From Sipunculus nudus (Eukaryota > Annelida > Sipuncula > Golfingiida > Sipunculidae), in the NCBI GenBank assembly GCA_026874595.1, contig CM049313.1, forward strand, positions 59,415,159 through 59,479,158: a DNA stretch of 64,000 bases. Direction: 5' to 3'. Under the pieces are notes generated by a model that saw nothing but the letters and a program-made list of their open reading frames with translations, made no database searches and was not told where the DNA came from. Shown piece after piece: positions 9,754-41,000 of this stretch. The translations under genes were made by a program, and so were the position numbers. Position 1 is the first letter of the stretch, and each line of letters opens with the position of its first letter.

Positions 9754-10382
9754 TTTCTAACTGCATTTTCTCTATATTTTATAGGGAAAAAGCTAAGAAG
9801 TATTAAAAATCTTCTTCTCCGAAAATGTCCAGCCAAATTGTCCAATATTTCAAAGAAATGATCCCTGGAACAATCTTTCTCAAGTTTGTTCAAATGGTTC
9901 CAGTTCGGAGATTTTTGGCCGAGTTACAGGTGGTTGAACTAAGTCATCTGTCCAAAAAAGCACACTAAAATTAAAATCTCAGAAACTGCTAGAGCTATAA
10001 TCACCAAATTTTATACCAATGTTTGTCACATATGTCATATCTGAATTTGAGGTATTGGTGGCGCCACCTACATTGATGTGTTTTTTACAAGCGAAAATGT
10101 AATTTTAAAATGTAGCTTTTACACTGATTTATGATGAAACTGTTAAGCTGATTGGTTTAAACTTTACAAGAATTATTCTATGGTAGGGTTCTGCCAGTTT
10201 AATAAGAATAGATTGGGTAAATACAGCTTTAAAAAAGCATTGTAGCCAATTGAAAAAGGCTTTCTGTGTTTGAAACCAGATTTGACAACATGCTGAGTTT
10301 CAGCAGCCAAGTCAAGAGTTCACTCAGTACAAACAAGTGGGGTCCAGACATCACCTTGGCAACTGACCTGGCTCTGGCGGGT

Positions 10383-10446
10383 GTCTAGACAATGTGTCTA
10401 GACGTCAAGACACAGCGTCTAGACGTCTAGACATAATGTCTAGATG
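10383..10446. repeat. Cluster of GTCTAGAC palindromes
   Basis: TCTAGA occurs five times in about 64 bp, mostly as GTCTAGAC separated by short AT or CG spacers. The stretch could fold in several alternative hairpins. It sits at the start of the segment homologous to the right-hand array, where the other locus (36421-36500) also has strong hairpins. Confidence 0.8.
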
Positions 10447-10699
10447 CAGAATTCCCAGACTATTGGAACTATATCTTTCAACTGTTTGAAAAAACTTGCC
10501 TTTTAAGCGAATCGGGTTTATCATCAGGTCACATGTGAACTGCTGTGCCCTCATTTTCGGTTGACCTCTGACCTCTCTCGCTGCCAAGCGTCCATTTATG
10601 CGTCTGTTTCCACATATAAACCCACATATCTCGGGAACCATTTGACCGATCAGGCTAAAAATTTTGCACAAATGTAGCCCTTTGATAGCTTTATAACAT

Positions 10700-11370
10700 A
10701 CACTAAAACGGTGGCGCCGTCTGCAACCATTTTTGCACAGCGTCCATCTGTTCATCTGCCTTGGTATAAAACCACTCATATCTCAGCAGTGGTTTGACTT
10801 TTCCACCTGAAATTTTGCAGGTTTATACATCCTGTAAATTTTTCTCGATTTTATTTCAGGTGGCGCCACCTACATTCACGTTTACTCTGCAGACATCCAA
10901 GCTCATATCTCAGGAACTGTTTGACCGATTGGGCAAAAATTTTGCATGTGTATAGATCTCACATAGCTTATCAACATAGGCAAAATTGGTGGCGCCACCT
11001 GCAACCATTTATGCACAGGGTCAATCTGTTCATCTGCCTTTGGATAAAATCACTCATATCTCAGCAGTGGTTTTGCTTTTCCACCTGAAATTTTGCAGGT
11101 CTATACATCCTGAACAGCTTTCTCGATTTTATGACAGGTGGCGCCACCTACATTCAGGTTTACTCTGCAGACATCCAAGCTTAAATCTCGGGAACCATTT
11201 GACCGATTGGGCAAAACCTTTGCTTGTGTATAGATCCTACACAGCTCTTCATCATAGGTACATAAAATCACTCATATCTCAGCAGTGGTTTGACTTATCC
11301 ACCTGAAATTTTGCAGGTTTATACATCCTAGACATTTTTCTTGATTTTATGACGGTGGCACCACCTACTT
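10700..11370 (+). repeat. 149/129-bp alternating tandem array with GGTGGCGCCACC junctions
   Basis: Palindromes at 10710 (imperfect), 10859, 10988, 11137 and 11354 (imperfect) delimit alternating units of 149, 129 and 149 bp, a dimer of 278 bp. One unit type starts CTGCAACCATT; the other starts CTACATTCA. Both carry CTCATATCTC and AAATTTTGCA blocks. The same dimer (149/131) occurs inverted at 35745-36185. Confidence 0.85.
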
Positions 11371-11512
11371 TCATGTTTACGCTGCAGACATCCATGCTAA
11401 TATGCAACACACCGCACTCTATTCCCCTTGCCACTGTATCCATGCCTCACTTCACCTGTACCACTCTGATTTCTGAGGATACACAGTCGCTTGTCGACTA
11501 CCCATATTCTAG

Positions 11513-11983
11513 TTTTAAAATGTCCTAGTCAGAAACTTGCAGGTCCGAAACGTCCATTTTGCTGAAATCATAATGACTAAGGTAGATATGCAGGACCTAA
11601 GAGGATCAATATTAAATTTTAAAAATAAACCTCCATTCATACTCCCAAACTTTGCACAGGTTCGCATTAGGCCTGTAAGCCTTGTTAACGAATTTTATCG
11701 GACTTTTCAATGTTTGTCTTGTGAGCGGGATATTTGAAAAGAATTCAACACGGGGATTTCATTATACAGTGCAGATGCATATCAACCAAATCTCGGGTCA
11801 AGTTCGGAGATGGGTTACTTTACCTTTTTTCAAGGTCACAGCTATATATATAGAAAAAAATCTTATGGGCTTATTTCACAGGAACCGCTGGGTGGATTAT
11901 TATGAAACATGGTTTGGTTATTGGCCTTGATGGCCTGTAATAGCTCGGCCATGTTGGCGGCGCCACGTACAATTTCAGATTAG
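11513..11983 (+). repeat. Truncated relative of the H1 left segment
   Basis: Positions 11690-11975 repeat the blocks of 7865-8140 (AATTCAACACGGGGAT, the CATATCAACCAAATCTCGGG region, CAGGAACCGCTGGGTGGATT, a GGCGCCAC core). It lies directly between the CTAG end of H1 and the 5' hairpin of H3. It looks like the remains of another member whose ends I cannot fix. Confidence 0.5.
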
Positions 11984-12775
11984 GGCCCCGCTTTAATCAA
12001 GCGGGTGGCCAATATTAATCATCCTGTCCGTCCGTCTTTCTGTCCGTCCACAAATTCGTTTCCGGATGATAACTCCAGTTTGGATTGATGAATGGATTTC
12101 AAACTGTAGATATACATGGCCCACCACTAAAGCAAGAACTCTTATGGATTTGGGGTCACAAAGTCAAAGGTCAAGGTGACAGGACCCACATCTTTGAAAG
12201 GTCTGTGGATGCATTTTAAGCCAAACTATTGAGGCCAGACCATCCATCTTGCAAATACAGGACACCTTCCAGGAGGAGAAGTTCTCCATCGATCTTGGAG
12301 CTCAAAGGTCAAGATCACAGGAGCCATCTGTCCACAAAATCATTTCCTGATGATGACTCAGTTTGTGAAGGCTTTGTTAGTGCTTCATTCAAAATGTTTC
12401 TCTCGAGATTACCTAACAATACGGGTAGAACCATATTGACTTCAACATCACAGGTTCATAAGGTCATTTGTTATATATTTCCTAGCATCACTCAGCCCGC
12501 ACTAGACGTCTATGGGCCTTTTGCGGGGCCCTTTCGGACCTGTCAGTAAAACATAAAAGAATGATCTGGCCTTAGGTTTTTCTTCTGTACGTCCTTCTGT
12601 CTGTCTGTTTTGTATTCCACTTTTTCAAATCAATATAGTTGCATATACATATTAATTCTTTCTACTTCCTCCAGAAAAGGCTTTTTTCTATTTTATGAAT
12701 TTCAGATGATCACCTTTCTTTTTGTCTGCCTTTTTATTTCAACTTCCGGCTTGCGCTCGACCTATGGTCGTCTAG
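11978..12775 (+). mobile_element. Short Helitron-like element H3
   Basis: The 5' side has AGGGCCCCGC and a hairpin CCCGCTT-TAATC-AAGCGGG at about 11988-12006, then a run of TGTCCGTCCGTC. An inverted GCGGGGCCCT lies at about 12524. The 3' end is a hairpin CGACC-TAT-GGTCG (12758-12770), then T, CTAG (12772-12775) and T. There is no coding frame. The architecture matches H2 without a clear satellite. Confidence 0.6.
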
Positions 12776-12787
12776 TTTTTAATTAAT

Positions 12788-13600
12788 ATTTATATGCTTT
12801 TTATTCGTCCGTGTATGACGGGACATATTATGGTATACCCACGGTCCGTCTGTCCGGCTTTCCGTTCGTTAACTTAAAGTGAAGCGGCGATAACTTACCA
12901 GGAAAATTATGGATGTTCACGATACCAATAGACTGTCTCGCCCGAGTTAAATTGTTGGCAAAAACACGCATATTTAATGAGGTCAGAGGTCACCATGCTA
13001 CTTTTTGGTATCGCCGCGATAGCTCATCAGGAATGTAACGGACTCCGATGAAACTCGACAGAAAGATTCACCAATATAACTTCTCTCAATAAGTTCGATT
13101 CCCATTGAATCCCAGGCATATTTAATGAGGTGAGACGTCATCATTCTTGGTGGCGCAGTGATCACTTACCATGAATCTGACAGATATTCATGAAACTAAT
13201 TATAAATATAAACCAATATAGTTCTTCACCCGAATTAAATTATTTAGGAATTCACGTATGAGGTCGGTCACCAGGCTTTGTGGTGTCAACTTGCACCCGT
13301 CTCTTTATTTTCAGTGTTGTCGCAATAACTTACCAGGGCTTTGTTGGATTTTCACTCAACTAACGATTACTACCAACTAATAGACTATCTCGTCTGAGTT
13401 CGATTCCGGGCGAAATCCAGGCATATCTAATGAGGTCAGAGGGCACAAGACGTGGCGTTATGATGTTTTACCAAAAATCGGATGGATTTTCGTGAAACTC
13501 GTTATAAATGTTAAATAATATTATAAATCTCAAAATTTTAATTATCGGCAAAATCTGCGCATAGTTAATGAGGCCAGAGGTCAGAAGACACATGTCAGGC
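12788..13600 (+). mobile_element. Helitron-like remnant H4 with 140-166 bp tandem units
   Basis: It starts with a hairpin CCGT-GTATG-ACGG followed by GTCCGTCTGTCCGG, the same head style as H2 and H3. The anchor GCATAT(T/C)TAATGAGGTCAGA recurs near 12968, 13116, 13255 (worn), 13421 and 13558. That gives five units spaced 138-166 bp. No CTAG end with a hairpin was found, so the 3' end is lost or unrecognised. Confidence 0.55.
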
Positions 13601-13960
13601 GTAACATGCACGCTTGCGGTACTCTTGTTCCAATTTTACCTAGTGAGCAAGATGTACAACAAATTCTTGGTCAAGTTTAAAGATGGGTCATTTCCGCTCT
13701 CTGGTGTTGCTAAAGACCTCGTATTTTACAGTTTATCCTCTACAGGGTGTTGAATCTGTTGATCATCCTTGAGACCTATATCACACCTTTTACCAGACTT
13801 GCACAGGTACCACAAACATCTCTGGTTCCAATCAGGACTTGATCTTGAGATATGTGTACAGATATACATCCACATGGGAACAGATATTTCATGCTTGTTA
13901 ATGTAACTAACCATATGCACTGTTCTATCGGCTGAGGGCTTTTGTCAGCTTCTGCTGATA

Positions 13961-14998
13961 CAGTGGAACCTCTCCTAGTGGGCACCTCTATAAAGTGGGC
14001 ACCTCTATAAAGTGGGCACTTTTGGGCAGTCCCGTTTTTTATTCTCTTTATCATGTTTAGCTAATGTGGGCACCTCTATATTCTGTAAACTGGGCAGTTT
14101 TGAAGAGCTAATGTGGGCACTTCATGGATTTACAGCAACTTTGTAAGCCTTCCTTATATTGCTTTTAAAGATTTAAGATAATATTAACTCTTTATAATTT
14201 ATTAATTATTAATTATGATTAATATTCATAAATTTCAATATTAAAAATCAAAACATATGAACTAAATTTAGAGGTGTACAAGTGAACATTGCATAATCAT
14301 GATTATAATCTACTTGACTCAAAACTAAGCTTTGGATGCATGCATACTAATTAGATTAATATGCCTGCACCAGCTCAAGTCAGAGATCACCCCAGACTAA
14401 ATTGCCCTGAGCTAATTAATTAATATTTGTTTGTTTGGCTAGGAAGACAGAGTGGAAGGAAGCCCTGCTCATTCACCCAATTAATACTCTGTGATGAGGT
14501 GACACTGCTAAATGCCCCTCTGGCCCAACACAGGTAGTCAGGTACACGCCCATTAGACCAGGGCAGTGTTTATTTAACAGTTGTTACATAACGATTCATA
14601 CTGTTGAAATGGTGTTCAACCTGGACTTTCTAAAAGCACATGCAAAGCTACAATGTGCACTTTGCTCCAAACAATCTACAATCACAGCCTTTTCACCACA
14701 AAATAAGAATTGTGACAACTTAACACATTCATTCAAAGTGCATCACACTTAAAGTGATTTATTGACTTCCAGTGACTGGATTGATGTTTTCGTTTTACCT
14801 ACTTGCCAACTTGATATAGAATGTTTTCTTAAGATGATAGTATTTAGATGAGAGACGTACTGTCTTTGCTTTTTCCTTGTGTATTTTTTTTATCCGAAAA
14901 TGACTAGATTTAAAAAATTATATTATTAAGAATTATTACTTCTCATGGTAATGCTAAAATCCACAGGCTGCTTTGCCATTTTGTGCTTATAAAATATA

Positions 14999-15037
<39 letters not shown>

Positions 15038-15377
15038 TATATATATATGAGTTCAGCTATTCTATAGACCATCTGCAAAGAGTTTCATTTTATTGTGCGT
15101 ATTTTTTGTCCATACTTTTATGTAATAAAATAAATATTCTCTATCAAATATCTTGATAATTAAAAATAAATTGTCACTGAAAACTTATCCTTAAATAAAG
15201 AAAGATTATACATGAAAAAAGTTATTTTAGTTATCTCAAAAATGAGTAATTATAGCAATATATCACACTAGGGGCAGCACTCTATGTGCTCGCCATTACC
15301 TCCATATAGTGGGCACCTCTATAAAGTGGGCACTTTGGTCCAGTCCCAAGGGTGCCCACATTATAGAGGTTTGACTG
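13961..15377. mobile_element. Non-autonomous TIR transposon with pogo/Tc1-like ends
   Basis: The left end reads TA|CAGTGGAACCTCTC, then repeated GTGGGCACCTCTATAAA. The right end reads ...ATAGAGGTTTGACTG|TA, the reverse complement of CAGTCAAACCTCTAT. Ends starting CAGT with a flanking TA are typical of pogo/Tigger-type Tc1-mariner elements. Inside the right end is a second copy of the left-end words in direct orientation (about 15305-15345), suggesting a rearranged or composite MITE. The interior is AT-rich and holds an (AT)n run; no transposase is visible. Confidence 0.6.
14997..15049. repeat. (AT)n microsatellite
   Basis: A run of AT dinucleotides of about 50 bp with one GAT interruption, inside the TIR element. 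Confidence 0.9.
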
Positions 15378-15384
15378 TATTCTA

Positions 15385-16800
15385 GACATTTTGGACTTGG
15401 AGACGGCCTTTGACTTGAGCTCCAAAGACTCTGACTCAAAAAAGGTGGACTTGGACTTGTGTGGGTTAGACTCTGACTTTCACTCGGGCTCTAGTAGTGT
15501 GGACTCTACTTAAACACTGTCCTTGTTTAGAATTACTCTATCCCAGTACAGCTTTCAACACAACAGAATTTGTCACGAAAGGCTTGAAATGTATTTGTGT
15601 CAGGAATTACATAAATGCACATTCAAATATAGCAGACACTGCGTGCGAGTTGGGATAAAAAATATAACGGGCTTTACGTGGCACCCCCCTAAAAAACAAA
15701 TAATAATAATGATAATAAATAGATAAATTAATAAAACACATTCTCTTCATTAAACAGGTTCTTTATTAGGCAGCAGATGTCGCCACGTGCTTGACGAAAG
15801 AAATTTTGACGGTAGCAGGAAACCATCGAATCAGCATGAAACGTGATCTTGAAATATATGAATTTAATGTATAATACGGGTTAATTACCCATTCTATAAT
15901 TTCCATTTAATTTTAAGTAATCTGCAGAATTTAGCCTATTTAATAAAGGTCATGCATATAGAAGATATTAAGAAAGTCACTTGGCTAATTAAATGTCTAA
16001 ATAAAACCAAAATATCTACGACCCCTGTTCAGAAAAAAAAATATATGTTTACCCAGGGAGGAAAAATGATGGTTTCAGGAAAAAGTGCGCTGGATTGCGC
16101 CTGCGATTGTATTTGAACCCCATAACGCGGACATTATGCGGAACTATAACCAAAAGGTCGTAGTACGAAGTAACCACGCGGCAGAGCCAGCTGAAAGAAG
16201 GTAAGGTTTGTATGATATATATACCTGGCTGATCAGTGGTGCAATCAAACAGGTCGTCATTCACTTGTGATCGGCAAAATAGTTGAGTTAATGACCGAAT
16301 AAATGAAAATAAACAGTGGACGTGGCGACATCTGTTGGGAAAAAATCTAAACGACCAGCACTCTTGATGGATTATAAAATGCATAGAAACTTAGTTTAGT
16401 GGGTACCACTCTCAAGCGTACAACTGGCTTTTGCTGGCACATTTTATTTTAAAACCCCTTAAATTTCCCTGTAAGTTATGTACCAACTGAACCTCTCGAA
16501 GACGGTCATCCCACTGATGGAGACTTCAGACAGTTTATTTCAAACGGAGTCCATCTCTTCAGTGTAAATGAACCTGACAATATAGGTCATATATATTTTG
16601 TGTGTTTTATATTTTATGTTCTACATTTTCCTAGCATTACACATGTGTTTCCCGGTTATAGAATTCCGGCAGTCGTCTCTCAATGCATTATTCCACCAAG
16701 GGAAGCTGAGTGAAACCTGGCTGGCGAGTATTAAACTCCCTCACACTTACGTCGTACCACTGAGTGTGACTCTACTAAGTGATCTTAAGCAAAGGTCACA
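15385..16800. other. Noncoding stretch
   Basis: It begins with a cluster of GACTTG/GGACTC/GACTCGG words (15395-15515), of the dispersed family described at 7440. The rest shows no recognised coding segment. An open minus frame at 16049-16384 has no recognisable domain. Confidence 0.4.
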
Positions 16801-16802
16801 CT

Positions 16803-17152
16803 GTCACGGTTCTAATTACGGCACTCCGGAATAATCACGATGCTATAAACCGTATCAAACCGTGGTGATCACGAAAATTTCTGTGGATCAAAATAATGGG
16901 CCACGGTTGTACTGGGGTAACTCTACGTTTTATCAAGGTATCACCGCTACTACACCCCGTCAGAAGCCGGTAATGCGACGGATGTTCTAAGGACCACCGC
17001 TGTAGGCTATGGTACACCGGAGTAGTCCCGGCGAGCATTATATGGTATCACCACGGAACATCAAGGGGTTTCTACGGTTTGTCAAGGTTGCCAACGATTC
17101 TGTTACGGATTGGACACGGTGTTGGTACGATTCTTCACGGTGGAGGTTATGT
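16803..17152. repeat. ACGG/CCGT word-rich block, left
   Basis: CACGG, TACGG, ACCGT and CCACGG words recur every 10-30 bp over 350 bp, in otherwise AT-rich DNA with few CGs. No fixed period is visible. A similar block lies at 18130-18400. An (ATT)n microsatellite begins straight after this one. Confidence 0.6.
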
Positions 17153-17154
17153 TT

Positions 17155-17155
17155 A

Positions 17156-17203
<48 letters not shown>

Positions 17204-17252
17204 GACTATTATTATTATTATTATGACTATTATTATTATTATTATTATTATC
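17155..17252. repeat. (ATT)n microsatellite
   Basis: About 30 TTA/ATT trinucleotides with two GAC interruptions. Confidence 0.95.
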
Positions 17253-17999
17253 AAATACAGTCTGTATTTTTATTTGTAATACAATAATCTCTTTAATTAA
17301 TTGAGTTTAATGTTAGTCTAGATACTTTAACTCTATATTAATTATTATTTACCGGTGTAATGGACACAGTTAAGCCTCTCTCTTGTTTTGGTTCATATTT
17401 TTCTACTCCATCTTGTGTTGATTTTTGTTTGGTTCATGTAAACATGAACTTAAGTGGCACTTTGGTCAAGCTAATGAACGAATTCACTAATTTCTCTGTT
17501 GAAGCACCCTCTTATTTAAACTAAGCCTTATTTATGATATCTATTGCGAATATTTATAGGTAATTTTTAATATCACATAAGTAAATATTATAATTTATAA
17601 TATCATATATAATTCAAGGTATTAACTTTGTTAGGGGTCTCGATATCTGAAGAAATAAGAATAAAATATCGTGCGTCATTGTTTGTTTTGTTGGGATCTT
17701 CGGAATTACTAATGGTATAGCTAGGCTTTAAATGCCTTCGACTCGACAGTCCCTTTGTCTTTTTGTCATTGCCTTGACTGTTTTTTTTCAAAACATTCAT
17801 ATTTCATTCTGTTTATTTCCATAGAAACATGTAACAAAATATGTTTTAATTAGGCTTACCAAGTACTTAAATAGGCCTGGGTGTAATAAAATATATGAAA
17901 ACCAGACAGAGGGTACGTGCAGCATATTAATTGGCCTAGTAGGGAACAGAAGCAATGATACTATAATGGTACACAAAATACAATGTTCCGAAGAAATGG

Positions 18000-18085
18000 T
18001 AGCACTTAATTTAGTGGACCTTTGTAATGTGGGAAGTTTGGTCCAGTTGCAAGGTGCCGATTTTAAAGAGAGTTTCACTGCAGAC
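18000..18085. mobile_element. Single pogo-like terminal fragment
   Basis: Words TAGTGGACCTTTGTAATG, TTTGGTCCAGT and AAAGAGAGTTTCACTG resemble the right end of the 13961-15377 element (GTGGGCAC..., TTTGGTCCAGTCC, TAGAGGTTTGACTG). No partner end was identified, so this is a worn one-ended remnant. Confidence 0.45.
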
Positions 18086-18129
18086 AATTTTATTCAAATC
18101 AAATTCATTTACATTAGGGCTGTCACTCC

Positions 18130-18400
18130 AGATCACGCATAACCACTCCCGAAAAGCTACGGATCGAAACGGAAGGCTGTACGGCGGTCCTACGGCGGGA
18201 GGGTGCATGGTAATACCGCAGTCCCACGGAGGGGACGGTTGTAATCAGGTTACACTAAGGTGCCACTACGATATGCATGTCACTACGGTGGGGCTACGGT
18301 GACCTATGAAAGTTTTAAACCGTTTAAACTACCGTAGCGACCTACGGATCGACACGGACCATCCCGGATCGGTACGGTTTGCCGCGGGACTCGCCAAGAC
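18130..18400. repeat. ACGG/CCGT word-rich block, right
   Basis: At least a dozen ACGG words (CTACGG, TGTACGG, CCACGG, CTACGGTG and others) occur within about 270 bp. A perfect TTTAAACCGTTTAAA-like palindrome lies near 18313. The composition is sharply unlike the flanks and like 16803-17152. Confidence 0.6.
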
Positions 18401-19320
18401 TGCCCCCCCCCCATTTTAAGCACCGCGAAACACTGTGGCTATAAATTGTGAATGTGGGACCTATAGGCTTAAAGGCCTGATATAAGATAAACAACTTAAT
18501 TCAGCACCATCTGGGACAAGTGACATGGTGTCTTCTGCTGAACCTTGAGAGTTTATTTCTTCAGAATATCCATAACAGCCAAACAACCAACCAGAAGCCT
18601 TAAAAAATATTGTTTTGTACATGTGATCAGTGACGTTGATCATCTATCATCAATAGGGTTGAAACGTTGTAAAAAAAAATGTTTTTTTCTCAGACATTTA
18701 TTTAATTAAGCCAAAGTCTAACAATACTTTTCAAGTTAGGCCATATTATTAAAATATATTGTCCTACTGATTCTTGGAACAAAATATTATTGTCATTATT
18801 TTACCGGTCGAGACGAATTCAGTGAAATTTTGCTTCTAATCTTGAAATGGTGAATATGATCAATGCAACATTTAGCCTATTTTTATACCTTTCGTAATTC
18901 TTTTGAGGGATTCGTGCCATACGGAAATTTGCAGCATTATCGAGGACCCCGTTTGGATTAAATAAACGGATCCACGAAAACGGGAGCGGACGATCAGAAG
19001 AAAAAATTATATTTTATCACGACCGAACTATAAAATTGGTTACCCCATCAATTTAGATGATTAAACTTATAATTAAAACATTAGAATAGCTCCTATTGAA
19101 ATAACTATACTACAGTTAACTTGTTATAGTGCATTTCATAATAAGAAAAAATGTTAACTTGATCCAGGACGATTGATAAACAGCGAATTAGCAGAATATG
19201 CTATCCTGGTAAAACACGTTTGAGTATAAAATATAAAAAAACATGTCAGTTGGCTGCACCAATAATAACAAATATATCCTCACTATGTGATCCAAATGTC
19301 TTGAGAAGTGTTTAATTTCC
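18401..19320. other. Noncoding region upstream of the ASB-like gene
   Basis: It contains a short C run (18404-18411) and AT-rich sequence. No coding segment was recognised. The proximal promoter is described separately. Confidence 0.4.
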
Positions 19321-19449
19321 CCGGTTATATAGCATCTCGACTCGCTATTTTTTCACGCGCATATTACTGTGACGTTTTTTTTTCTGTAGTGAATGTTTCA
19401 CGACGTCAGAATATGACGTCACATCCGGACGTTGTAAAGTCGGTAGTAG
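19321..19449 (+). promoter_or_regulatory. Candidate promoter of the ASB-like gene with a perfect CRE
   Basis: A TATA-like GTTATATAGC lies at about 19322-19331. A perfect cAMP-response element TGACGTCA lies at 19414-19421, with a half site CGACGTCA at 19401-19408 and an Ets-like ATCCGGA just after. The CRE is only 29 bp before the first ATG, so it may sit in the 5' UTR. Transcription start and factor binding are inferred. Confidence 0.35.
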
Positions 19450-22276: not shown

Positions 22277-22960
22277 AGTTTTTCTTAAACGTTTGCAAGA
22301 TTTCCTAAATATCTTGTGATATTGAAACATATTATGCAATATATATGGTGTTATTAAACGAAAATGTTGCAAAGGTTTTAGCAAAGTATATTTGTAAAGT
22401 GTATTTTACACATTTGCTTTTACTTTTATAATTCAACGAAAGCTGTGATATTTTATTTTTTTATAACACTACATGTATGGCGACATTTTTACACAGAGAA
22501 AGCAGGGGGTTTAAAGTAACCATCTCGCTGTCTTTGCATAGACACCACTGCTGTTTACTTTATTAGAGTGAGTATTATTTCATTTCCAGTTCGCAGTGGA
22601 CGTACGCATATCATTATTTATTGTAAATATGCTCTTGCAAACGATATCCGTTCTTGGAACAGGCCAGAGTCGGTAGGCTGTCATGGCAACATATAATCCA
22701 TTCGGTATTCCCTCAACCACTTAACCACTCAACCACAAAAAAACTCGTATAAAATGGATTCCAATTTACATGTTTAATAGGAAAAAAACCCCGCAGTATT
22801 TACACTGGCTCGCTAAAACGGATAATATTTGCATATTTTTATTTTATTTATAATAAGGCCTTGTTTTCTGGACGGGCACTTGTTATTCTTATTGGTATTA
22901 ATATTTTATTTCACAAGTTCTTGTACCATGGACTCGGTACGGGAAGCAGCCTTATAGAGA

Positions 22961-25222: not shown

Positions 25223-27078
25223 CTGAAACATTAATATATATATATCTCAGTCGAGGAGCGGTGATACTCTCACGGTCTGTTCAACCCAAGGCGGGCCTGG
25301 GTGACACCAGAATATAAAAAAATAATAATAGAAGCGAGTGCTATCTCCCTATCATGTACTCCCAAACCGAAATAACAGTCTGTAGATTTACATAAATAGA
25401 CTAAGAATAAGACAAGTCAGCATTGAAAAATACAGCGGTTACCTCAAATAAGATAAAAAGTAAAATAAAAATGTATTAAGTATTAGAACTACATCAAAAT
25501 ATACAGTGAAGATAGGGAATATGTGCTAACCGTTCAATACATATGTATGTATCCCAGGCGCCGAAAGCTCAGGCGATGAAAACCCTTTGAGTGATACAAG
25601 AGAACACTCGCCATTTCTTTTAATTTGGATCGAGCTGCAGGGAAGCGAGGTCTCTTGGGGCCGTGCACAATGAGACATACATCGGATCTTCGATATATCA
25701 GGGTACGTCTTGATAACTGTTCCCCCGGAAATGACAGTATCCTTTTTCCGGATATATCTTACGGACGAATTAACTGCATCAGCATCTTCAGTAAAACAAA
25801 GTATAATTTATATTTATGATAAATTTTTATTCATGTTAAAAACTGTATATTATCGTTTCGACAATGCAAGCCAGCTACCGGCATCTCTTTCAAACGCATA
25901 TTTCAATGGGATATCTTCAGGTATGGGCAAGGATAGCCCCGTACAAACTTAAACGTATAAAATATGCAAAGATTTATACATAATTATGAATTTGATTTTA
26001 TTTACCCATGTTAACTAAAATTAAAACGATTTTAAAAAGAATGTTATGTAACACGGAATCCTTGCGATCCCTTTGTACCTTCTTTATATCATTTAAGATC
26101 TTCATTATCATCCACGACTTTCGTGAACTATTTTTTGCGAATATGAGCATGAAAATGCATTCATGTATACTGTATTTCCCTTGCAAACCGTGACCTGACT
26201 TCTTGTTATGACCTTTGACTTCTTCGGACGTTAATACGATACGTCAGCAAGGGACTACCGCCTTTATCCGAAAATAACGAAAGGTTCACAATCATTTATG
26301 GTTAAATGTCCTCACAGAAAATCTCAGCAATTAGCTGTGGTCTTAATTTCAATCAAACATATTAAATACATATTTTGTGCATTTCTCATAGTTCCTGAGC
26401 CAAGAACAATATACGCAAGGCGTATATGCAATTTCGGAATCATGGACTGTTATTAGAAATGATTCAAATAAACAAAAAGAGGTGTTATTTTAATTTGTGT
26501 AAGCATTTGGTGCTGGCATTGGCAGAAACACTCCTGCATGTGGTTGCCTACGCTAACACCTTGTGACTGCACCATATCTCAGAGCCCCAAAACCACTTCA
26601 AGACCAGTGTTTTTTATCAACCAAAACACAATACAGACAGTGATTATATATACATGGTCACAGGACAAAACTGGTGAGACATACAGAACAGTACTGAATT
26701 TAAACATTACCTGTTATTATGAAGTAACTGTATAACTAATAACTTGTTTTTCATTTCCTTCCAAAAAAAATATTACTTTTAATCATAATGCGGGTAATGA
26801 TATGTAATGTAATTTTGATCTAATTTATTATATATATATTTTAAAAATATAACATTTAATTAAAATATCTGTTGCAAAAATGAGTGTTAGGCTTCCCCTG
26901 GTATAGCTGATCTTCTGCCATTGAAATAACTGGTGAACATTATTCACAGCCATAATGTTAACATTACAAATATACCTTGTAATGTTAACATAACAAACAT
27001 ACCTTGTAATGTTTACGTCACAAACATACCTTTTGCATAAAGTAAAACCCACAATGCGGCATATATACGTATGTGCAT
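25056..27078 (-). CDS. PAN/C-type lectin unit 1 (partial gene, second lectin exon missing)
   Basis: Three exons are seen on the minus strand. The signal-peptide exon (27078-27030) encodes MHIRIYAALWVLLYAK. The PAN/apple-like exon (25785-25541, 245 bp) is fully open, with TVISGGTVIKTY and cysteines in RCMSHCARPQ, LPCSS and GECSLVS. The lectin exon (25222-25056) encodes CLLVAPSTVKM, DYCNDKGGTLLRVRNPAES. Signal exon and PAN exon join in phase. The lectin exon lacks the first CPDGY segment seen in unit 2 and its acceptor phase does not fit, and no second lectin exon was found down to the ASB-like gene. The product would be secreted. With half a lectin fold it may be a PAN-only protein or a pseudogene at the array edge. 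Confidence 0.6.
25541..25785 (-). CDS. Unit 1 PAN/apple-like exon
   Basis: A 245-bp open exon, same length as in unit 2, bounded by GAAG|AT and CATAT|GTATTG. It carries RKKDTVISGGTVIKTYPDIS then four cysteines spaced as in PAN modules (RCMSHC..., PCSS, ECSLV). PAN domains bind protein or carbohydrate ligands; the ligand here is unknown. Confidence 0.65.
26944..27030 (-). repeat. 27-bp repeat that triplicates the 5' splice site of the signal exon
   Basis: On the minus strand, AAG|GTATGT of the signal-peptide exon is repeated twice more at 27-bp steps (ACAAG|GTATGT and ACAAG|GTATAT), each followed by TTTGT...TAAACATTAC-like sequence. Use of the later donors would add 27 or 54 bases but meets a TAA in the signal-peptide frame, so only the first gives a secreted product. 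Confidence 0.75.
27030..27078 (-). CDS. Unit 1 signal-peptide exon
   Basis: ATG at 27078, sixteen codons MHIRIYAALWVLLYAK plus one base, then GTATGT. The 49-bp length, M(H/Y)IR start and hydrophobic core match the unit 2 exon at 42432-42480. Confidence 0.65.
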
Positions 27079-27935: not shown

Positions 27936-28079
27936 CGTAGGAAAGTCGTCAGTTTTATCTACTACGCGCAACAATGTGCTTGAAGCCAAGAGGAGAAAAT
28001 ATACGTGTGTACCTAAAATTTGCAAATATATGTTTACATTACATATAGGTCAAAGTATATTTACTTTTGTTTATATTCT

Positions 28080-28270
28080 ATTGGTGCCTCCAAAAGGAGG
28101 TTATGCGTTCATCCCCTTTCGTGAATGTGTTTGTGTGCGTGTGTGTTATTACAGCTGCAATCATGAATGGAATCTCATGAAATTTTCAGGGCATTTCGGG
28201 AATGGACCACTTAAGAATCGATTAGAGTTTTGTATGGATCCGGCACATGATCCGGATTTAGGAACGTGAT
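28080..28270 (+). mobile_element. Short hairpin-headed repeat H8
   Basis: The head CCTCC-AAAA-GGAGG is followed by TTATGCGTTCATCCCC, a GTGTGT run and AATCGATTAGAGTTTTG...CACATGATCCGGATTTAGG. The last part matches 49810-49860 (AATCGATTCGATTTTGGAAT, then CATGATTCGG). It is the same head-hairpin style as H2-H4 but another family. Confidence 0.45.
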
Positions 28271-28399
28271 CAAGGAAAATCACAAATGTAGTGCATCACA
28301 AGTGCTGACAATTTACAATTATTAACAGTAATGTTCAAATGCTCTGTACATGGTTTAAAAAATGAAATGAATAAATAAAAAAATAAAATCACTAAATTT

Positions 28400-30535: not shown

Positions 30536-30734
30536 CCATAATTGCTTAGCTAACTGCTTTTCATAACATCTATCTGTCAGTCTAATACATTCAGGTAAAT
30601 GTACATTCTCCTACTAGTTTAAAAAGATAACATGCACTTACCCAAAGTTATCAAGGATTACCATTTCCATGATACTCTGTGTATAACATTCCTTGTAGAG
30701 AGATTCGCATAATTAGGATTATTCGCAGGGAAGA

Positions 30735-30880
30735 GGTATTTTGTGCCTTGTGCTAAGGCTGAGACATCGGGTCTCCGATATATCTTGGTAGGTTTTCATA
30801 ACCATTCCGGTATCCTTTTTTATGGGATATACTTCACCCACCATATCATACAACCGTTGCCTGCCTCCAGTGATAAAGAA
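30735..30880 (-). pseudogene. Decayed PAN-like exon of a lectin unit
   Basis: On the minus strand, ATATCCCATAAAAAAGGATA, ACCGGAATGGTTATGAAAAC and CCTACCAAGATATATCGGAG parallel the PAN exons (CGGAAAAAGGATACTGTC...GTTATCAAGACG...GATATATCG). Frames are interrupted, and no lectin or signal exon was seen close by. It is a relic of a fourth unit, next to the LINE. Confidence 0.55.
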
Positions 30881-31104
30881 GGGATTGTCCGTAGACAGTA
30901 CAGGAGGTAAAATCCCACATGATTTGATGTTGGTATGTATTCAAACATGAAGAATGGAATGTATTCGATTGACATAGTTATAATACATGCATTGATTTAG
31001 TTGTTTTTAAAGTGTTTGAAAATGTATATATGATATTACCCAGAGATCATGGAACCTCAACGAACCGTTTTTGTATTTTTCCTTCGCGTCTCCACAAGTT
31101 CTGG

Positions 31105-31136
31105 CAATAATAATAATAATAATAATAATAATGATA
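31105..31136. repeat. (AAT)n microsatellite
   Basis: Ten AAT trinucleotides ending in ATGATAAC. Confidence 0.95.
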
Positions 31137-31621
31137 ACAATGTCCCGGATACTCACATCCCTTACACATACAAAATATGTTTCCACTTAAACAGATCCTT
31201 ACAATCTCTCCAAAACTATCTCTTTTCAATCTCTCATCAGGTTTTAAGTGCTATGGTAGAAGGGTGATGCAGACACATATTAATCAACAAAGGCCTGCTG
31301 AAAAGGAAGTCTTTAGAAGGGCCTTTCTTTTTGAGTCTTCAAAATGATCCCTGCCCAATTCAAGATACATTTATGAGTGTCTAATGCAGAAGGGACGTCA
31401 CTGATTTTGCCTCGAAATGTTCGACTAAATTAATAAATGATATGATATTTTAATTGGCATGAATATGTGATGGTGCAGTTGCATGGAATACTGTGTTCTT
31501 AACAATAACTTTCAATCCCTGTCACCTGTTACTAACCACATTGTCATCTTAGTTCTGTCCATTGAATCGCTGACATATAACACCACATCACAGTTGTTTT
31601 CACAGCTAAGATAACATTTTT
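31137..31621. other. Noncoding stretch
   Basis: AT-rich, no repeat family or coding frame recognised. Confidence 0.4.
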
Positions 31622-32060
31622 AGGGCCCCGCTTGACAACCGGTGCCCTATAGCGATCAACATGCCAGTCCACCCTTACGTCCTACCGTCAGTGACGCTTT
31701 CCTGCGCGCGATATCTCAACAACAACATGCTTGAATTTTCTCGAATTCACAGGGATGATTGGTACCTACAGGGGCTCCAGACTTGTCAATTACAGACCTA
31801 TCAGAATCCAAATATGGCTAACACAGCGCATTCGGCGTTTTCCTTTGCACGCGATATCTCAACAACAACACGTTTGAGTTTTCTCTTCTAAAATTCAAGT
31901 GATGATCGCTACCTATTAGGGCCCCGAACCTGTCGAATAACAGACCTTCTGGAATTTCAAATAGGCCACCGCAGCACAAGCGGTGATTTTCTTTCGCGTA
32001 CGTTATCTCAACAACAACATGCTTGATCTTTCTCAAATTCTAATTGATGATTGGAGGTAA
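31622..32060 (+). mobile_element. Helitron-like remnant H6 with about 146-bp units
   Basis: It begins TAGGGCCCCGCTTG, like H3, with GGGGC...GCCCTA pairing. The anchor CG(A/T)TATCTCAACAACAACA recurs at 31709, 31852 and 32001 (steps 143 and 149). TAGGGCCCCG recurs at 31918. The 3' end was not found. Confidence 0.5.
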
Positions 32061-34860
32061 TACATACCCCACCCCCTCCCCTCTCTGGGTTGTCGCCCCT
32101 GATCCTTTATGGGACTCAGTTTCGTGCTTCCTGTCACATTCATACCGTTAATGCCGGACAAATATTTGAACCTTTCCGTGTAAGTAACGCTATAGTAAAC
32201 TTCCGTGGGTGATATCAATTTCATTTACCGTCAAGAGAGGGAATGACACATAAGGCAAATAACTTGTACTCCTATGTATTAATTGCAAGAATTCTTGTTG
32301 AAAGTCCTTAATAAATTGCATAAATGATATTAAATATGATTTTTCTACCGATAAATCTAACTGATACATCAAACTATCCATAAATATCACAACTGACCAT
32401 ATAAAGGAGTGCATAGTATTAGTTAAGAACAAAGGTTTCACCAGTTTAACCATTTAATGGTATATTTTAAATACAAATAAGAAAGGGCCATTATAGTAAA
32501 TCAATGTACATGCAGTTTTCACATATTTACGAAGCGTTCGGTTGAACAATTGGATAGAAACCAGGACGCCCAATAAAATATAAAACATAAACAAAGTTGA
32601 ATGATAGCGACTACAGGAGAGCGATATCTGAGAGATATATGCTAAATACAGTTTCTCTGTCACAAACCCCGTCTTATCTCATGGCGATAGACTTTGAAAA
32701 GGATTACCTATTGGACAGTATAATGTAACCCTATCCATTTTACGGGAATTTATGTGAAGAGACATTTGAATGACAGAGGGAGAAACAATAGACAGAATAA
32801 AAAGTTAGATTGTGGTATCCCGTTTTAATATTTACGCACTTAATCACAAATGATGCTGCTTTTCCTTACAACGCAATATTGCATCACCGAGAGGATCGTT
32901 CAGTTCTATTGCAGCTCAGAGTATATACATGACCTCATTACAGGACCTCATCCTCTCAGACAATAACATTCAAATTTAGGAAAAGGCCCTTTGGCAGTAG
33001 ATAAATAAATTTTCTTCAAAGCCGTTGTATTATAACTTATACTTAGATTCATTTATTAACTGATGTAAACCCCATGCAGGCCATATGTCAGAATATAAAC
33101 ATAATACCTGTGTAAGGTGATGGTAATTATTTACTTTCTTGTACTGGTTCCTATTGACCGTGCATAATTCCCATTTTTATTGAAGCCCGGTCCCCTCAGA
33201 AAGTGACATGATATTTTTTGTACATCAGAATCTCCATTTTTTCCATGCATTGTCTAAAGAAATGACACTTGATTCCAGTCAGAAGATTTATAATAATATT
33301 GTAAAGAAAATGTTAGATGAAGTTAACTTTTTGTTAAAAATTATTTCCGGGATGTAAAATCAATAATTAAATTGCAAACTATACAACCGAGTTTTGCATT
33401 ATCATCCCAACCTATACCATAGGATTCGAATTGTCTGTTGTTGGTCTACTGAAGTCACCCGAGCTGTATTTTCTTTTGAAATTTAGACCCCACGATTAAG
33501 ATCTGAATAATTAATTGGCATTTCTTCCAAATGCATGGACAACGTGTCGTAAATCAGGCATAACGTGAAGTAATACCTTATATTATGTGTCGTGTCTAAA
33601 CCCATTTATGAGTAATTTCTGTTCTTCTGTCCATACCGTTATGCCTTATCGTTCGAATCCCTGTAAATGTCAAAGACTGAGTGTTTACTTTTCTGTTACT
33701 CAAAGCTTCATATCTTCATAGAAATTCACATTTCAATAACCTATAGGCAATAATGGTCTACGAGCAAATTTGCATATAAATATAAACCTGCTCAGAGATC
33801 AGCAAGAGAAGAACAATAGCAAGTACAATGAAGCTTATTTGGCGATTTTACTTGTTAACATACATTTCTGTCAAAATCTGTATGTGAATGTATAGTAAAT
33901 GATATCGTGCACTACACATACACATACAAATATACAGTGGGTGCAAATTTGTTGATAATCAGGGCGAGAAAAGGGAATTCTTCTGAATATAAATTATATT
34001 AAATTCATTTGAGTATTCACCATGGGATATTTGATTCAAATTTGGTACACATGTAAGAGATGGTGACTACAAGTGTTCATGTTTTAGAGTACCAGTTTAT
34101 TATAAGATTGGTACCAGTCTGTTATGAGAAGAAACCAAATTATTCAAAGGCTGTACCAGTCTATTGGGCAGGAACAGGAATATTTTTTTTAGGAACAGGG
34201 ATAGAACCACATACTATTAAATCAAGTTGTGTATCCTTTTCTCAGCATTTCATGTGTACGCTGGCGTCATCATACGCCACAGTTATTTCTCCTGCATAAT
34301 GCAAAGACACCTTCCGCTGTAAATTATACATAGTAAATGTAGAATCAAGGCCCGAAAATAATGACGAACTCGGTGCCATGTAAGACAGTGTGGTTGGATT
34401 TTTGTTCGAGAGGGTAGAATTTAAAAATTTCTTCACTATGGACGTTTCGCGAGGGTGACCTTTTCTTGATTGCCACAGAAGCTATAAAATCTAATTAAGG
34501 CAGTAATTGCATAAAATAAATCCCACAATACCTCACTCAATTTCATACCAGTTATTTTAATATGACTTGTATCACAGTCGGCATATCCTCGGTGATTACC
34601 ACAGGTTTTATAATAATTAATACGTGTTTGCATGGGAAGGTTAAGGTATGTCGCACTGATCAGGTTTCATTGCTGATTAACAAACCATGTTTTCATAGGT
34701 GCGATAACTGTTTAATTTGTACAGATGTATCATCCCTTCTTATTCCTTACGGCTGGTAGGATATTTATGGTTGAGATTTTTTCCCCATCCATGAAAATCG
34801 TGAAATTTAAATCCTCGTAAATAAAAAGCCAAACATAATATAATTTTATATCATTTATTT
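32061..34860. other. Noncoding region between H6 and lectin unit 2
   Basis: No coding exon recognised. Around 34088-34170 a TACCAGTCT(A/G)TT motif is repeated three times. Short open frames on both strands lack domains and splice context. Confidence 0.4.
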
Positions 34861-35084
34861 TCATGGATACTGACAGACCACGTGACTTAACTGGGAACTA
34901 TGAACGTCGACCCACGTTGTGTAATTACTGAGCCGGTAGAGGGCGACACAGTCTTCCCCAAGACCACCGTTTGGTTCTCCCCTATCCCAGTTAAAGTAGC
35001 TGACCGTGGGCCCGTCGATCCCCCATCTCCAGTGGTTCTCGGCCTCCCTGTCGCTGATGAAGAGCCAAACAAATGTCGTGAAAC
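34861..35084 (-). CDS. Unit 2 lectin exon, C-terminal half of CRD
   Basis: A TTTCAG acceptor at 35085-35090, then G|FTTFVWLFISDREAENHW. EPN at about 34970 and WVD at about 34910 are the Ca2+/sugar-site motifs. Cys in EDCVALY and VVCQYP would form the conserved disulphides. The stop is at 34861-34863, with an AATAAA on the minus strand only a few bases beyond. Confidence 0.85.
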
Positions 35085-38000
35085 CTGAAATTATTAAACC
35101 ACATGCTTGGTAAATGACATTACTTAAATTTAAAGGTTGTTTGTAAACAAGTGACCCATGGGTCATGACGCTCAGCTGACTGGGAAGAGATTCACAAAAG
35201 GAAATTTTATCACCAGAATGGTAGTATATACCCATTCAACTGAAGCATCAAACAGATTAACCAACAGGCCAAGATTTAGTCTGTATTTATATATCTCAAA
35301 AATAGAGAAAAATGTGTAAACTTTTAAAACTAGAATACGGGTAACCGACAAGTGACTACATGTATCTGCCAAAATCGGATAGTGAGGCATGGATTGAGTG
35401 GCAAGGGGAAATAGAGTGAGGTATGTTGCATATTAGCATGGATGTCTGCAGCCTAAATGTGTATGTAGGTTGTGCCACCTACCACAAATTCAGAAATCTG
35501 TCCAAGTTGTATACACCTGCAAAATTTTAGGCAGAAAAGTCAAACCACTACATGTATATGAGCGATTTTTGCCCATGGCAGACAAACAGACAAACACCGT
35601 GCAAAAATCTTTGCAGGTAACCCCTCCAGTTTTGTGTATGATAAAGACCTATGTGAGATCTAAACACATGCACAATTTTGGCCCAATCGGTCAAATGGTT
35701 CCTTAGATATGAGCTTGGATGTGTCCAGCGTTTACTAGAATGTAGGTGGCGCCACCTGTCATAAAATCAAGAAAGCTGTCCACGATGTATAAACCTGCAA
35801 AATTTTAGGCAGTTATGTCGAACCACTACAGAGAAATGAGTAATTTTAGGCCACGGCAGACTAACAGACAGACGCTGTGCAAACATTGTTACAGGTGGCG
35901 CCACCATTTTTTGTGTATGTTACAGAGCTATCAAAGGGCTACATTTGTATAAATTTTATTTCCTGATCGGTCAAACGGTTCCCGAGATATAAGCTTGGAT
36001 GTCATCAGCGTGAACGTGAACATAGGTGGCGCCACCTGTCATAAAATCAAGAAAGCTATCCTGGATGTATACACATGACGAATTTCAGGTGAATTTGTCA
36101 ATTCACTGCAGAGATATGAGTGATTTTAACCCAAGGCAGATGAACAGATGGACACTGTGCAAACATGGTTACAGGTGGCGCCACCATTTTTTGTGTATGT
36201 TATAAAGCAATCCAAGGGCTACATTTGTATCAATTTTATTTCCTGATCGGTCAAACGGTTCCCGAGATATGAGGGTTTATGAGTGGAAACAGACCCACAA
36301 ATGGACACTGGATAGAGAGGAAAGGTCAGAGGTCAATGCAAATTGGTTAGGCACCAGTTCACATGTGACCCGATAATAGGTGTAAGTTTGGGAAAAATCG
36401 GTCCATTAGTCTCTGAGGAGCTCTCTGGAAACGAACGCCGCCACGGCGGAGGAACTCGGTCAAAAACATAGTATCCGCAAAACTTCGTTTTGGCGGATAC
36501 AAAAATACAGGTGGCTCCACCAGTCTGCAGAAACTAATAAAAACACTTAATGGTCAATATCCATGCAAAAAATCATGGTGATCTCTGCATTAGTTGTTCA
36601 GATACTTCAGTTTTTGTATCAAATTGTCCATTATTCTGAGGGATACTTCGGAGTCCTATAGCTTGAAGGATATGGGTAACAGAGACCTAATTTCAAGTTT
36701 CCACAGGCACCTTTCATGGGCCTCCTTGCATGACAAGAATGAAGATTCTAGGTCCAGTTGTTGCGATTTGTATCCTGTTGACAGATAACCACATCTTTAA
36801 AGGTCTCAAAAAAAAAGAAAAAAATTCGTAAAAATTTGAAAAAAATAGAGGTGGCACACCCAGTCTGCAGACTGATGGAACAGCTCATGATCAATATGTA
36901 TGCCGAAAATCATGACCATCAGTGTTGTAGTTATTGAAATACTGCAGTTTTTGTATCAAATTTTCCATTATTTATGGGGGGGGGGGGTATTTTGGACCCA
37001 TACAGCTTAAAGAATATGGGTAACAGAGACCTAATTTCAAGTTTCCATGGAGACTTTTCATGGGTCTCCCTGTGTGTCAAGAATGAAGATTCTTGGTCCA
37101 GTTTTTATGATTTGTGCCCTGTTAACAGATGTTCATATCTTTAAAGGTCTCAAAAATACAGAAAAATTTCGTAAAAAAAAACGAACAAATACAGGTGGTG
37201 CCACCAGTCTGAAGAAACTTATGAAACACTCCATGATCAATATCCATGCAAACAATTATGGTTATCTCTGCATTAGTTGTTCAGATACTTTAGCTTTTGT
37301 ATCAAATTTTCCATTATTCTGAGCTGTACTTTGGAGTGCCATAGCTCAAAGGATATGGGTAACAGAGACCAAATTTCAGGTTTCCATGGAGACTTATCAT
37401 GGGTCTCCCTGTGTGTCAAGAACGAAGATTCTAGGTCCAGTCGTTACGATTTGTACCCTGTTGACAGATAACTACATCCTTAAAGGTCTCAAAAATGGAG
37501 AAAACAATTCGTGAACATTGAAAAATACAGGTGGCGCCACCAGTCTGCACAAACTGATGAAACATCTCATGATCAATATGTATGTCGAAAATCATGACCA
37601 TCAGTGATGTAGTTAATGAGATATTGAAGTTTTTGTATGAAATTTTTTACTATTCTGGGGGGTAATTTTGGGCCCCATAGCTCGAAGGATATGGGTAACA
37701 GAGACCTAATTTCTGGTTTCCATGGAGACTTTTCATAGGTCTCTCAGTGTGTCGAAAATGAAGATTCTAGGTCCAGTCGTTACGATTTGTGCCACGCTAA
37801 CAGATGACAACATCCTCAAAGGTCTCAAAAATAGAGGAAAAAATCGTAAAAAATCAAACAGTACAGGTGGCGCCACCAGTCTGCAGGAACTGATCGAACA
37901 TCTCATGATCAATATGTATGCCAAAAATGAAGACCATCAGTGATGTAGTTATTGAGATATTGAAGTTTTTGTATGAAATTTTTGACTTTTCTGGGGGGTA

Positions 38001-41000
38001 CTTTGGGGCCACATAGCTCGAAGGATATGGGTAACAGAGACCAAATTTCAGGTTTCCATGGAGACTTATCATGGGTCTCCCTGTGTGTCAAGAACGAAGA
38101 TTCTAGGTCCAGTCGTTACAATTTGTACCCTGTTGACAGATAACTACATCCTTAAAGGTCTCAAAAATGGAGAAAACAATTCGTGAACATTGAAAAATAC
38201 AGGTGGCGCCACCAGTCTGCACAAACTGATGAAACATCTCATGATCAATATGTATGTCGAAAATCATGACCATCAGTGATGTAGTTAATGAGATATTGAA
38301 GTTTTTGTATGAAATTTTTGACTATTCTGGGGGGTAATTTGGGGCCCCATAGCTCGAAGGATATGGATAACAGAGACCTAATTTCTGGTTTCCATGGAGA
38401 CTTTTCATAGGTCTCTCAGTGTGTCGAAAATGAAGATTCTAGGTCCAGTCGTTACGATTTGTGCCACGCTAACAGATGACAGCATCCTCAAAGGTCTCAA
38501 AAATATAGGAAAAAATCGTAAAAAATCAAACAGTACAGGTGGCGCCACCAGTCTGCAGAAACTGATCGAACATCTCATGATCAATAGGTATGCCAAAAAT
38601 GAAGACCATCAGTCAAGTAGTTAATGAGATATTGAAGTTTTTGTATGAAATTTTTGACTTTTCTGGGGGGTACTTTGGGGCCCCATAGCTCGAAGGATAT
38701 GGGTAACAGAGACCTAATTTCTGGTTTCCAAGGAGATTTTTTATGGACCTCTCAGAATCCCAAGTTACAAGGTTCTAGGTCCAGCGGTTACGATTTGTGC
38801 CTGGTTAACGGACGGACAGACGGACAGACGGACAGACGGACGACGGACAAAGAGTGATCGCTATAGCTCAGATGACTTTCAGTCAGCTGAGCTAAAAATG
38901 ATCTCTCAGGCTAACAGATAACTACCCTTCCTCCACAGGACGTCTCTACTTAAAACTTCTTTCACTAAATCACTATGAGGTACGCAGTATTACTTGTCTC
39001 AGCTCTAAAATATTAATATCAAAACTTGTTATTCTTACACTCACGTTTATGTAATATGCCTCGTTACAAATCTTATTCCCCGCATTTAAACGGACTACAT
39101 TACCCCCTTCATAACATTTTAACATACATAATCTGTGTATGTAGAAACTCACATGCATTGTGGGCTGTAGATTCCAAAGCCTAAAAACCCTCAAGGGCAG
39201 AGCCCTATCTGTATCAGTCCGATTCTATTTAGTTAGGGCTTAGAGATAACAATATGTATGCTTAAACGCGATAAGATAAGGTTTTAATAATTTACGTTGC
39301 TGGGAAATTGTATACCATGCTTCTGGAGATGCCGGGAAACGTAAAAGCCTTCAGCTGAGTCACGGACCCGGAGCAGATTTCCACCTTTGTCATTGCAGTA
39401 TCCAATAGCGTTATGCCAATTCATTTTGACATTAGAGGGCGCCACAAGGAGACAGTCCCCTGTATTGATCATGGTGTAACCATCCGGGCATCCTGTATCC
39501 AAATGAATTACTACATATCATCAAATCTCAAGAGGTACTTATTAATTTAATACTTTAATACCTTCAAGATATTATTTTATAATTAGTTCTCTGTACTAAA
39601 ATATGAGAACCATGTTACATAAAGATTCGTTAAGAAACCTAACTGTGAAAAAAGTCCCTTTAAGGAATTAACACACTGCTGACAACACTATACTTTTACT
39701 GTTAACATTTTATTGTTTTAATTGTTGGGCGTTCCATTTAAACGTGTAGTTACATAATCGAACGTTCTTTTGCGGCAATTTATGACTGAATTAAGAAAGC
39801 TATCTCAGTTTATACTCCAGTGCAAAATAGGCAATTTATAGAATAAGCCATCGCGTAACTGCTTTCAGTCTAAACCTATTTTCGTACTTGTGTGAAAAAA
39901 AATCAATATACGTTGCACATGTGGTAGAAATATAAACATGCATGACAAAGTCGTGGTATAAATTTATATGACATAATTAAAAAAAATTGAATACACAGGA
40001 AAGTCGGTTCACCGCAAATGAAAATCGAACCCATGGCCTTCCGATTACCGGTGGTCTGCTATACTACAGATTCCCAACACTATAACAGATTCCAAACACT
40101 TGTGTGTTAGCATACAACCAGCGAAGTGACGTCACAGTAGTGATGCCAAAGTACTATACCTGCTTACTACACGTGTCAACTCGGCGGCTTTGATCGCAGG
40201 AGGAAGACCTCATGGTCCTTTAAAGTGTGCGGACTAAATAACATAGAGAGACATAAGAATAAGCATGCTGGTTCATTGTATAGAGAAATGGAACATGAAC
40301 ACAAGGAATCATACGTTTCTATATAATATATGGTTAGGAATTTATTGTAACTTGGTAAAAAACAGACGACCGGCAATCAGATGCCATGAGTTCGATTCCT
40401 ATTGGCTGTGAACTAACCATTCTTTACATATACATGCATCCCAGGCGCCGGAAGCACAGGTTGTGAAATGATTTGGCCAGAGACAAGAGAACACAGTCCA
40501 AGGTTTGTAATTTTGACCCAGCGGCAGGGAAACGAGGTGGCTTGGTGCCGTGCGCAAAGGGAGATACATCTCGTCTTCGATAAATCATGGTAGGTCTTGA
40601 TAATTGTCCCGCCGGAAATGACGGTGTCTTTCTTCCGTGTATACTTCAGGGACGAAATCGTGGAATAAACATCTGAAATGTTTGTGAAACATATGATCTT
40701 ATTATTTTTCCTCAGCATGAAAACTTACTGTATTCTTTCTTTATCTTTCTATACCAATGTCTCATACTCTGGCTTTCAGGATCTTATTGAACATGTTAAT
40801 GCATCAATGCAGCATGGGACATTATCTACCAGCCAGAGGTAGAGACCGGCAGCATAATCCAACTGAATTTAAAATTAACACCGTAAAATAAGGTCAATTT
40901 TAACAACTGCCTTCATTACGAACCTAAGGAGACCTAACCTTTATATATCAATAGCGTAACCGGATTTGTATTATTTCCCGTATCTCCTCTGATACCACGG

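Follow-up and report, generated by a model that had tools for sequence, protein, structure and literature searches.

We identified the 12-bp palindrome GGTGGCGCCACC, together with the T that trails it, as the second box (box B) of a satellite-like monomer with two boxes that occurs in four families (F1, F2, F3 with its subtypes A and B, and F4) within the window, the 64-kb stretch of DNA analysed here. In all 20 aligned units its partner lies upstream: box A, with the sequence ATATCTCRGNAAC or a variant of it, begins 79-85 bp before the palindrome, a spacing range of 6 bp. The base directly 3′ of the palindrome is always T (20 of 20). The idea raised in an earlier note on this DNA, that a conserved box is common to different-looking arrays, is supported. 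We hold the anatomy and the common descent of the monomers to be quite probable, and lean towards an explanation of the whole in which box B of the monomer has been kept by descent with some constraint; a putative role of the palindrome in binding a protein, read from sequence, is the tentative part of this account.

All twelve exact copies claimed previously were found in the 64-kb window, starting at 10057, 10859, 10988, 11137, 35745, 35894, 36025, 36174, 37530, 37866, 38202 and 38538, and the unit lengths of 149, 129-131 and 336 bp given with them come out of the coordinates as the same spacings. Allowing up to two mismatches yielded 22 matches in the window against a mean of 0.48 and a largest count of 3 in 100 dinucleotide shuffles, and GGTGGCGCCACC is the commonest palindromic 12-mer in the window, two AT-run 12-mers aside. 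Ten of the matches are inexact, with no more than two mismatches, and seven of these lie inside units like those of the exact copies (8124, 10710, 11354, 11956, 35468, 36510 and 37194). At the other three (4052, 21784 and 25175) the monomer model matches the palindrome only, or nothing, and these are probably chance matches.

The second box was sought in 20 array or single copies that had been set in one orientation; with ungapped scoring alone the best match of the minus-strand unit at 35468 is shifted to 87 and that of the minus-strand unit at 35745 is tied. In F3A, the hub family (see below), box A reads ATATCTCAGGAAC at 10905..10917 on the plus strand, 83 bp upstream of the palindrome at 10988. 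A strict test applied an anchor derived from F3A to the 79-87 bp interval of eight of the 20 units and to 100,000 positions drawn at random away from the repeat clusters. Scores reached 12/13 in F1_8124 (0 of 100,000 random positions), 11/13 in F1_11956, F2_10057, F4_38202 and F4_37866 (P 0.0002 each) and 10/13 in F3B_10859 (P 0.0025), and were weaker in F4_36510 (9/13, P 0.017) and F3B_35745 (8/13, P 0.087), all of these P values being indicative since the anchor was picked after the units had been seen. On the opposite flank of the palindrome the same anchor scored at chance level in eight of eight units (P 0.32-0.96).

The two F1 monomers lie on the plus strand at 8045..8135, with box A ATTTCTCAGGAAC at 8045-8057 and the palindrome variant GGTTGCGCCACC at 8124-8135 (spacing 79), and at 11873..11967, with box A starting at 11873 and the variant GGCGGCGCCACG at 11956-11967 (spacing 83); the two copies share 80% identity over 7872-8117 and 11709-11945. 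F2 is a single plus-strand monomer with an exact GGTGGCGCCACC at 10057..10068 and box A at 9974-9986, again at a spacing of 83. The surrounding region, 9780-10068, holds two diverged monomers 158 bp apart with box A-like starts at 9816 and 9974, the first having a segment picked by eye at +82 (9898) and the second the palindrome at +83.

Apart from the palindrome the sequence of the units had been taken to differ. The units look instead like distant relatives, with the second box at 79-85 bp in 20 of 20. With palindromes masked, each family left out in turn and the top score from 20 shuffled windows as benchmark, held-out HMMs recovered all four F3A units (E 7.5e-11 to 0.003) and, of six F3B units, put one, 11354 with 13.3 bits, above the benchmark. 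None of the two F1 and none of the seven F4 units exceeded that benchmark, F2 (E 0.014, 11.1 bits) fell just below one shuffled match of 11.4 bits, and an unrelated place at 40994-41055 scored 10.1 bits. Nine upstream segments of 85-101 bases, box A included and palindrome excluded, were also compared in 36 pairs, where biv stands for a monomer near 9814 and F4b for the second of the two half-units in the 336-bp repeat. Six pairs reached P ≤0.01, namely F1-F3A and F3A-F3B (0 of 500 shuffles as good for either), F3A-F4a (P 0.002), F2-F3A (P 0.008), F2-biv and F4a-F4b, and among those not significant were F1-F2, F1-F3B, F1-F4a, F2-F3B and F2-F4a. The pattern makes F3A a hub family whose ancestral monomer the other families likely share, a kinship not proven pair by pair; we infer that the F1, F2, F3 and F4 monomers descend from one old monomer. 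Cross-family identity is 0.895 at the palindrome against a mean of 0.489, the former value being inflated because the units had been selected by the palindrome.

F4 forms the central tandem array of an element that has the clear anatomy of a HINE (a non-autonomous Helentron, thus a small transposon of the rolling-circle type), located at 35151..38894 on the minus strand. This element has a 13-bp exact subterminal inverted repeat, GCTCAGCTGACTG, at 35170-35182 and 38880-38892, within the 11-15 bp expected of HINEs. As in HINEs, the left module has a hairpin (38864-38894) followed by a microsatellite, here (ACGG)n at 38808-38849, and a right-end palindrome, TGACCCATGGGTCA at 35152-35165, sits beside the subterminal repeat at the 3′ end. 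The central array at 36501..38809, also on the minus strand, is built of 336-bp units that each comprise two related half-units of ~168 bp, of which only one carries the palindrome (36510 with one mismatch, 36850 with three, 37194 with one, and exact copies at 37530, 37866, 38202 and 38538). On the same strand a C-type lectin ORF (34864-35235) has an open frame that continues into the right end of this element. A third HINE-like element, at 8227..9756 on the plus strand, has a hairpin at 8227-8257, an 11-bp subterminal repeat (ATGCCCCCGCC, 8228-8238 and 9720-9730) and a 180-bp central array without GGTGGCGCCACC. At 11983-12060 a hairpin-like GGGCCCCGCTT..AAGCGGGTGGCC is followed by a GTCC-type microsatellite, with a similar start at ~31623, and this is perhaps the left module of a further HINE-like element.

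HINE features have been described (PMC4067079), and the nearest published parallel is found in Crassostrea gigas, where Cg_HINE elements carry satDNA-like central repeats and where, in the excerpts available of that study, clusters CL1/2/10/13 and CL4 have two relatively conserved segments in common in monomers that are otherwise dissimilar (PMC7492417). The F4 element shares with Cg_HINE inverted repeats, both subterminal and in the left module, a microsatellite of GTCC type, a short central array and a palindrome at the right end; it differs in that the Cg_HINE palindrome described in those excerpts, which do not give GGTGGCGCCACC, is terminal (PMC7492417), whereas GGTGGCGCCACC lies inside each monomer.

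F3, the 149/130 array, is the central repeat of a second element, present in two copies. Copy 1 (10519..11520, plus strand) contains three A/B monomer pairs with palindromes at 10710 (two mismatches), 10859, 10988, 11137 and 11354 (one mismatch), the palindrome of the third A monomer being deleted. Copy 2 (35322..36500, minus strand) has palindromes at 35468 (two mismatches), 35616-35627 (four mismatches), 35745, 35894, 36025 and 36174 and a hairpin at 36471-36500. BLAST self-matches confirmed the opposite orientation claimed for the two copies, which are 77-80% identical. Copy 2 is nested in the F4 element: the flank to its left (35286-35320) aligns with an F4 unit (36 columns, 83%, E 8e-6), in a match that stops 19 bases short of the palindrome at 37194. 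The F3 element is probably HINE-like, a qualified assignment because a terminal hairpin is present but no clear subterminal inverted repeat, there being a 7-bp exact match only in copy 2 and none of at least 8 bp in copy 1. To the left of copy 1, dense inverted repeats of GTCTAGAC occupy 10384-10444; copy 2 has no match to them in self-BLAST.

The palindrome had been placed at the junctions of units. In BLAST self-matches the 149/130 array has its edges at 10625/11403 and 35430/36273, outside the palindrome and either at box A or at the expected start of the next box A: on the right, likeness to an inner unit runs to 45 bases past the first base of the last palindrome and stops just where another box A is expected, and to the left of box A only 10- and 14-base matches occur. 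Both F3 copies inherit the same edges by descent and these therefore amount to one observation; as they are not in the palindrome, whether it counts as a unit junction depends on the register chosen. At 36501 the 336-bp array has an edge nine bases from the palindrome at 36510, and this is the insertion point of the nested F3 element. A junction at the F1 palindrome was considered and rejected: the BLAST match between the two F1 copies ends just before it, but the alignment continues beyond and other elements come next.

In another reading the palindrome is a rearrangement hotspot at which monomers have been cut and joined, through illegitimate recombination or a transposase-like cut-and-paste, which we regard as unlikely. 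Precedents have been published, such rearrangement having been proposed for the box motifs of Meloidogyne satellites and suggested by the phBglII400 palindrome: Meloidogyne satellites have a 17-bp box common to divergent nematode monomers, and one Meloidogyne box has been proposed to be recognised by a transposase-derived protein (PMC3694981), while a 12-bp palindrome in phBglII400 contains 13 of 16 junctions and DTC84 has a conserved palindrome near its repeat junction (PMC5139131). Two breaks in the window are also close to the palindrome, the nested F3 insertion nine bases from the F4 palindrome at 36510 and a deletion that has broken the third A monomer of F3 copy 1 no more than ~10 bases from the expected palindrome start (three bases away in the alignment, although the exact place is ambiguous). 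These are single cases however, and T-rich targets are preferred by HINEs anyway (PMC4067079). With the F3 array edges (the one observation) at or just before box A, and with the lone monomers (8124, 10057 and 11956) keeping their spacing without a tandem neighbour of their own kind, the suggestion of a hotspot for joining units finds little support. The comparison with Meloidogyne Box 1 and Box 2 holds in that a short box persists in strongly diverged monomers; Box 1, as described in excerpts of the source, is however CENP-B-box-like and located at monomer junctions (PMC3694981), whereas in our case the only array whose edges can be judged has them outside the palindrome, although two breaks lie within ~10 bases of a palindrome position. 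The phBglII400 and DTC84 palindromes, compared by description and not by letters, differ from ours in the same respect (PMC5139131).

When the two F3 copies are compared, the palindromes differ at 3 of 60 positions and the remaining sequence at 194 of 930 (Fisher p 0.0013), a count that leaves out the third A monomer, whose palindrome is deleted in copy 1 and has four mismatches in copy 2. The palindrome offset is the lowest of 128, tied with the overlapping +1 and +2. Across the seven units of the 336-bp F4 array, in contrast, the palindrome window ranks 82 of 325. That the palindrome is kept while its flanks diverge thus holds between the F3 copies but not in the 336-bp array, where its conservation is unexceptional. 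The arrays are CpG-depleted (o/e 0.44-0.57).

That descent alone accounts for these observations, the palindrome being a functionless, slow-changing stretch of an ancient monomer that unequal exchange and the copying of elements would have homogenised, is a substantial possibility, a little short of even. The families appear related, and the palindrome of the 336-bp array is kept no better than many other windows. Degenerate copies occupy the expected place at 36850 and at 35616-35627 (the latter read from the alignment of the F3 copies), and the central CpG is gone in 5 of 20 units. Related half-units without the palindrome point the same way: in F4b the best segment 40-140 bp past the anchor matches no more than 8 of 12 letters in seven of seven units. 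Three tandem monomers of ~145 bp at 31695..32054 on the plus strand also have a box A-like ATATCTCAACAAC (TTATCTCAACAAC in the third) and no palindrome downstream. From F4b and these monomers it follows that the palindrome is not essential to the monomer. A second palindrome in the F4 half-unit, TCCATGGA, was considered as a counterpart and rejected, its position not being homologous. Against descent alone stands the palindrome's roughly four times lower rate of change relative to the rest between the F3 copies, and we infer that it has survived in part through descent and in part through constraint.

Where constraint acts, it would most likely come from a sequence-specific DNA-binding protein, either a host factor or part of the Helentron machinery, and such a candidate protein would use the palindrome during replication or amplification of the repeats. 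A more specific version of this idea is that the elements have captured a transcription-factor site that would bring a cell-cycle factor to the repeats. The central TGGCGCCA matches the core of the palindromic E2F-type site in its letters, and a palindrome suits a dimeric protein. The E2F core is not known to require the outer GG or the following T, however, and both are as constant as the centre in our units; this captured-site version is in our view very unlikely. A literature search on E2F-type palindromes gave nothing relevant by title among the matches listed.

Least probable of all, to the point of being nearly negligible, is that the unit encodes a structured RNA or ribozyme. The self-complementary 12-mer could fold as a 4-bp hairpin, but none of nine Rfam matches (E up to 1) lies at the arrays, folding of five segments gave z-scores of -1.1 to +1.8, and the palindrome variants are without two-sided compensation; ribozymes and RNA structure were set aside after Rfam and the folding of the five segments had given nothing. 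Prokaryotic or viral relatives were likewise rejected. Patterns of box A plus palindrome matched one stretch in viral contigs and 29 in genome contigs, all 30 being phage or bacterial DNA by title and GC (0.44-0.74), and the monomer model (E up to 1) matched the palindrome region only, in 5 of the 30. Three further patterns had no match in viral contigs, and blastn gave no match for 10600-11420 against phages or for 36400-38900 against plasmids.

We also considered that box A and a GC-rich palindrome ~83 bp apart are read as one unit by a conserved protein in several HINE-type families, a doubtful proposition that, if true, would mean that divergent satellites of the lineage have been selected for one binding architecture. 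BIV160-type monomers may have a different GC-rich palindrome at the same place, a suggestion that draws on one monomer of the window (9816, 9898). The monomer at ~9814-9816 is possibly BIV160-like, and its +82 segment was likened by eye to the BIV160 box. For the BIV160 primers bivF and bivR, the only BIV160 sequences compared, the best six listed ungapped matches each lie outside 9780-9900. Bivalve BIV160/Cg170 repeats resemble our monomers in having two well-conserved motifs despite divergence and in their association with mobile elements (PMC5139131), although homology is not established, the published primers matching best elsewhere than at the candidate monomer.

The earlier note offered the palindrome as its best candidate for something undescribed. 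This stands in so far as no described role was found for it in the open-licence literature: within the open-licence text covered the GGTGGCGCCACC string occurs only in a chitinase paper, and six strings from the units are absent from that literature. It does not stand for the phenomenon, since conserved boxes or palindromes are known from bivalve HINE/pearl repeats and nematode satellites, and conserved boxes also from Helitron ends (PMC8268682, PMC11136912). The class, mobile-element central repeats with a conserved box, is thus known, and the new example is a palindrome with a partner box ~83 bp away in four families. It bears on the old question of why tiny boxes outlast otherwise diverged satellite-like repeats. 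The palindrome with its partner box at a near-fixed distance in several families provides a probe for a binding protein, if there is one, and the pair can also serve as a tracer of mobile-element central repeats turning into satellites.

Elsewhere in the window we noted SOCS-box/ankyrin and integrase-bearing ORFs; on the strength of these and the C-type lectin ORF we regard the DNA as eukaryotic. Three related segments (25510-25769, 40413-40679 and 50225-50494; 68-76% DNA identity) have open frames, two of which were scanned with no Pfam match, and are perhaps exons of a duplicated gene. At 54938-57956, direct repeats of ~153 bp (93.5% identical) surround ORFs matching integrase H2C2 and, weakly, a zinc knuckle, which is probably an LTR-type retroelement.
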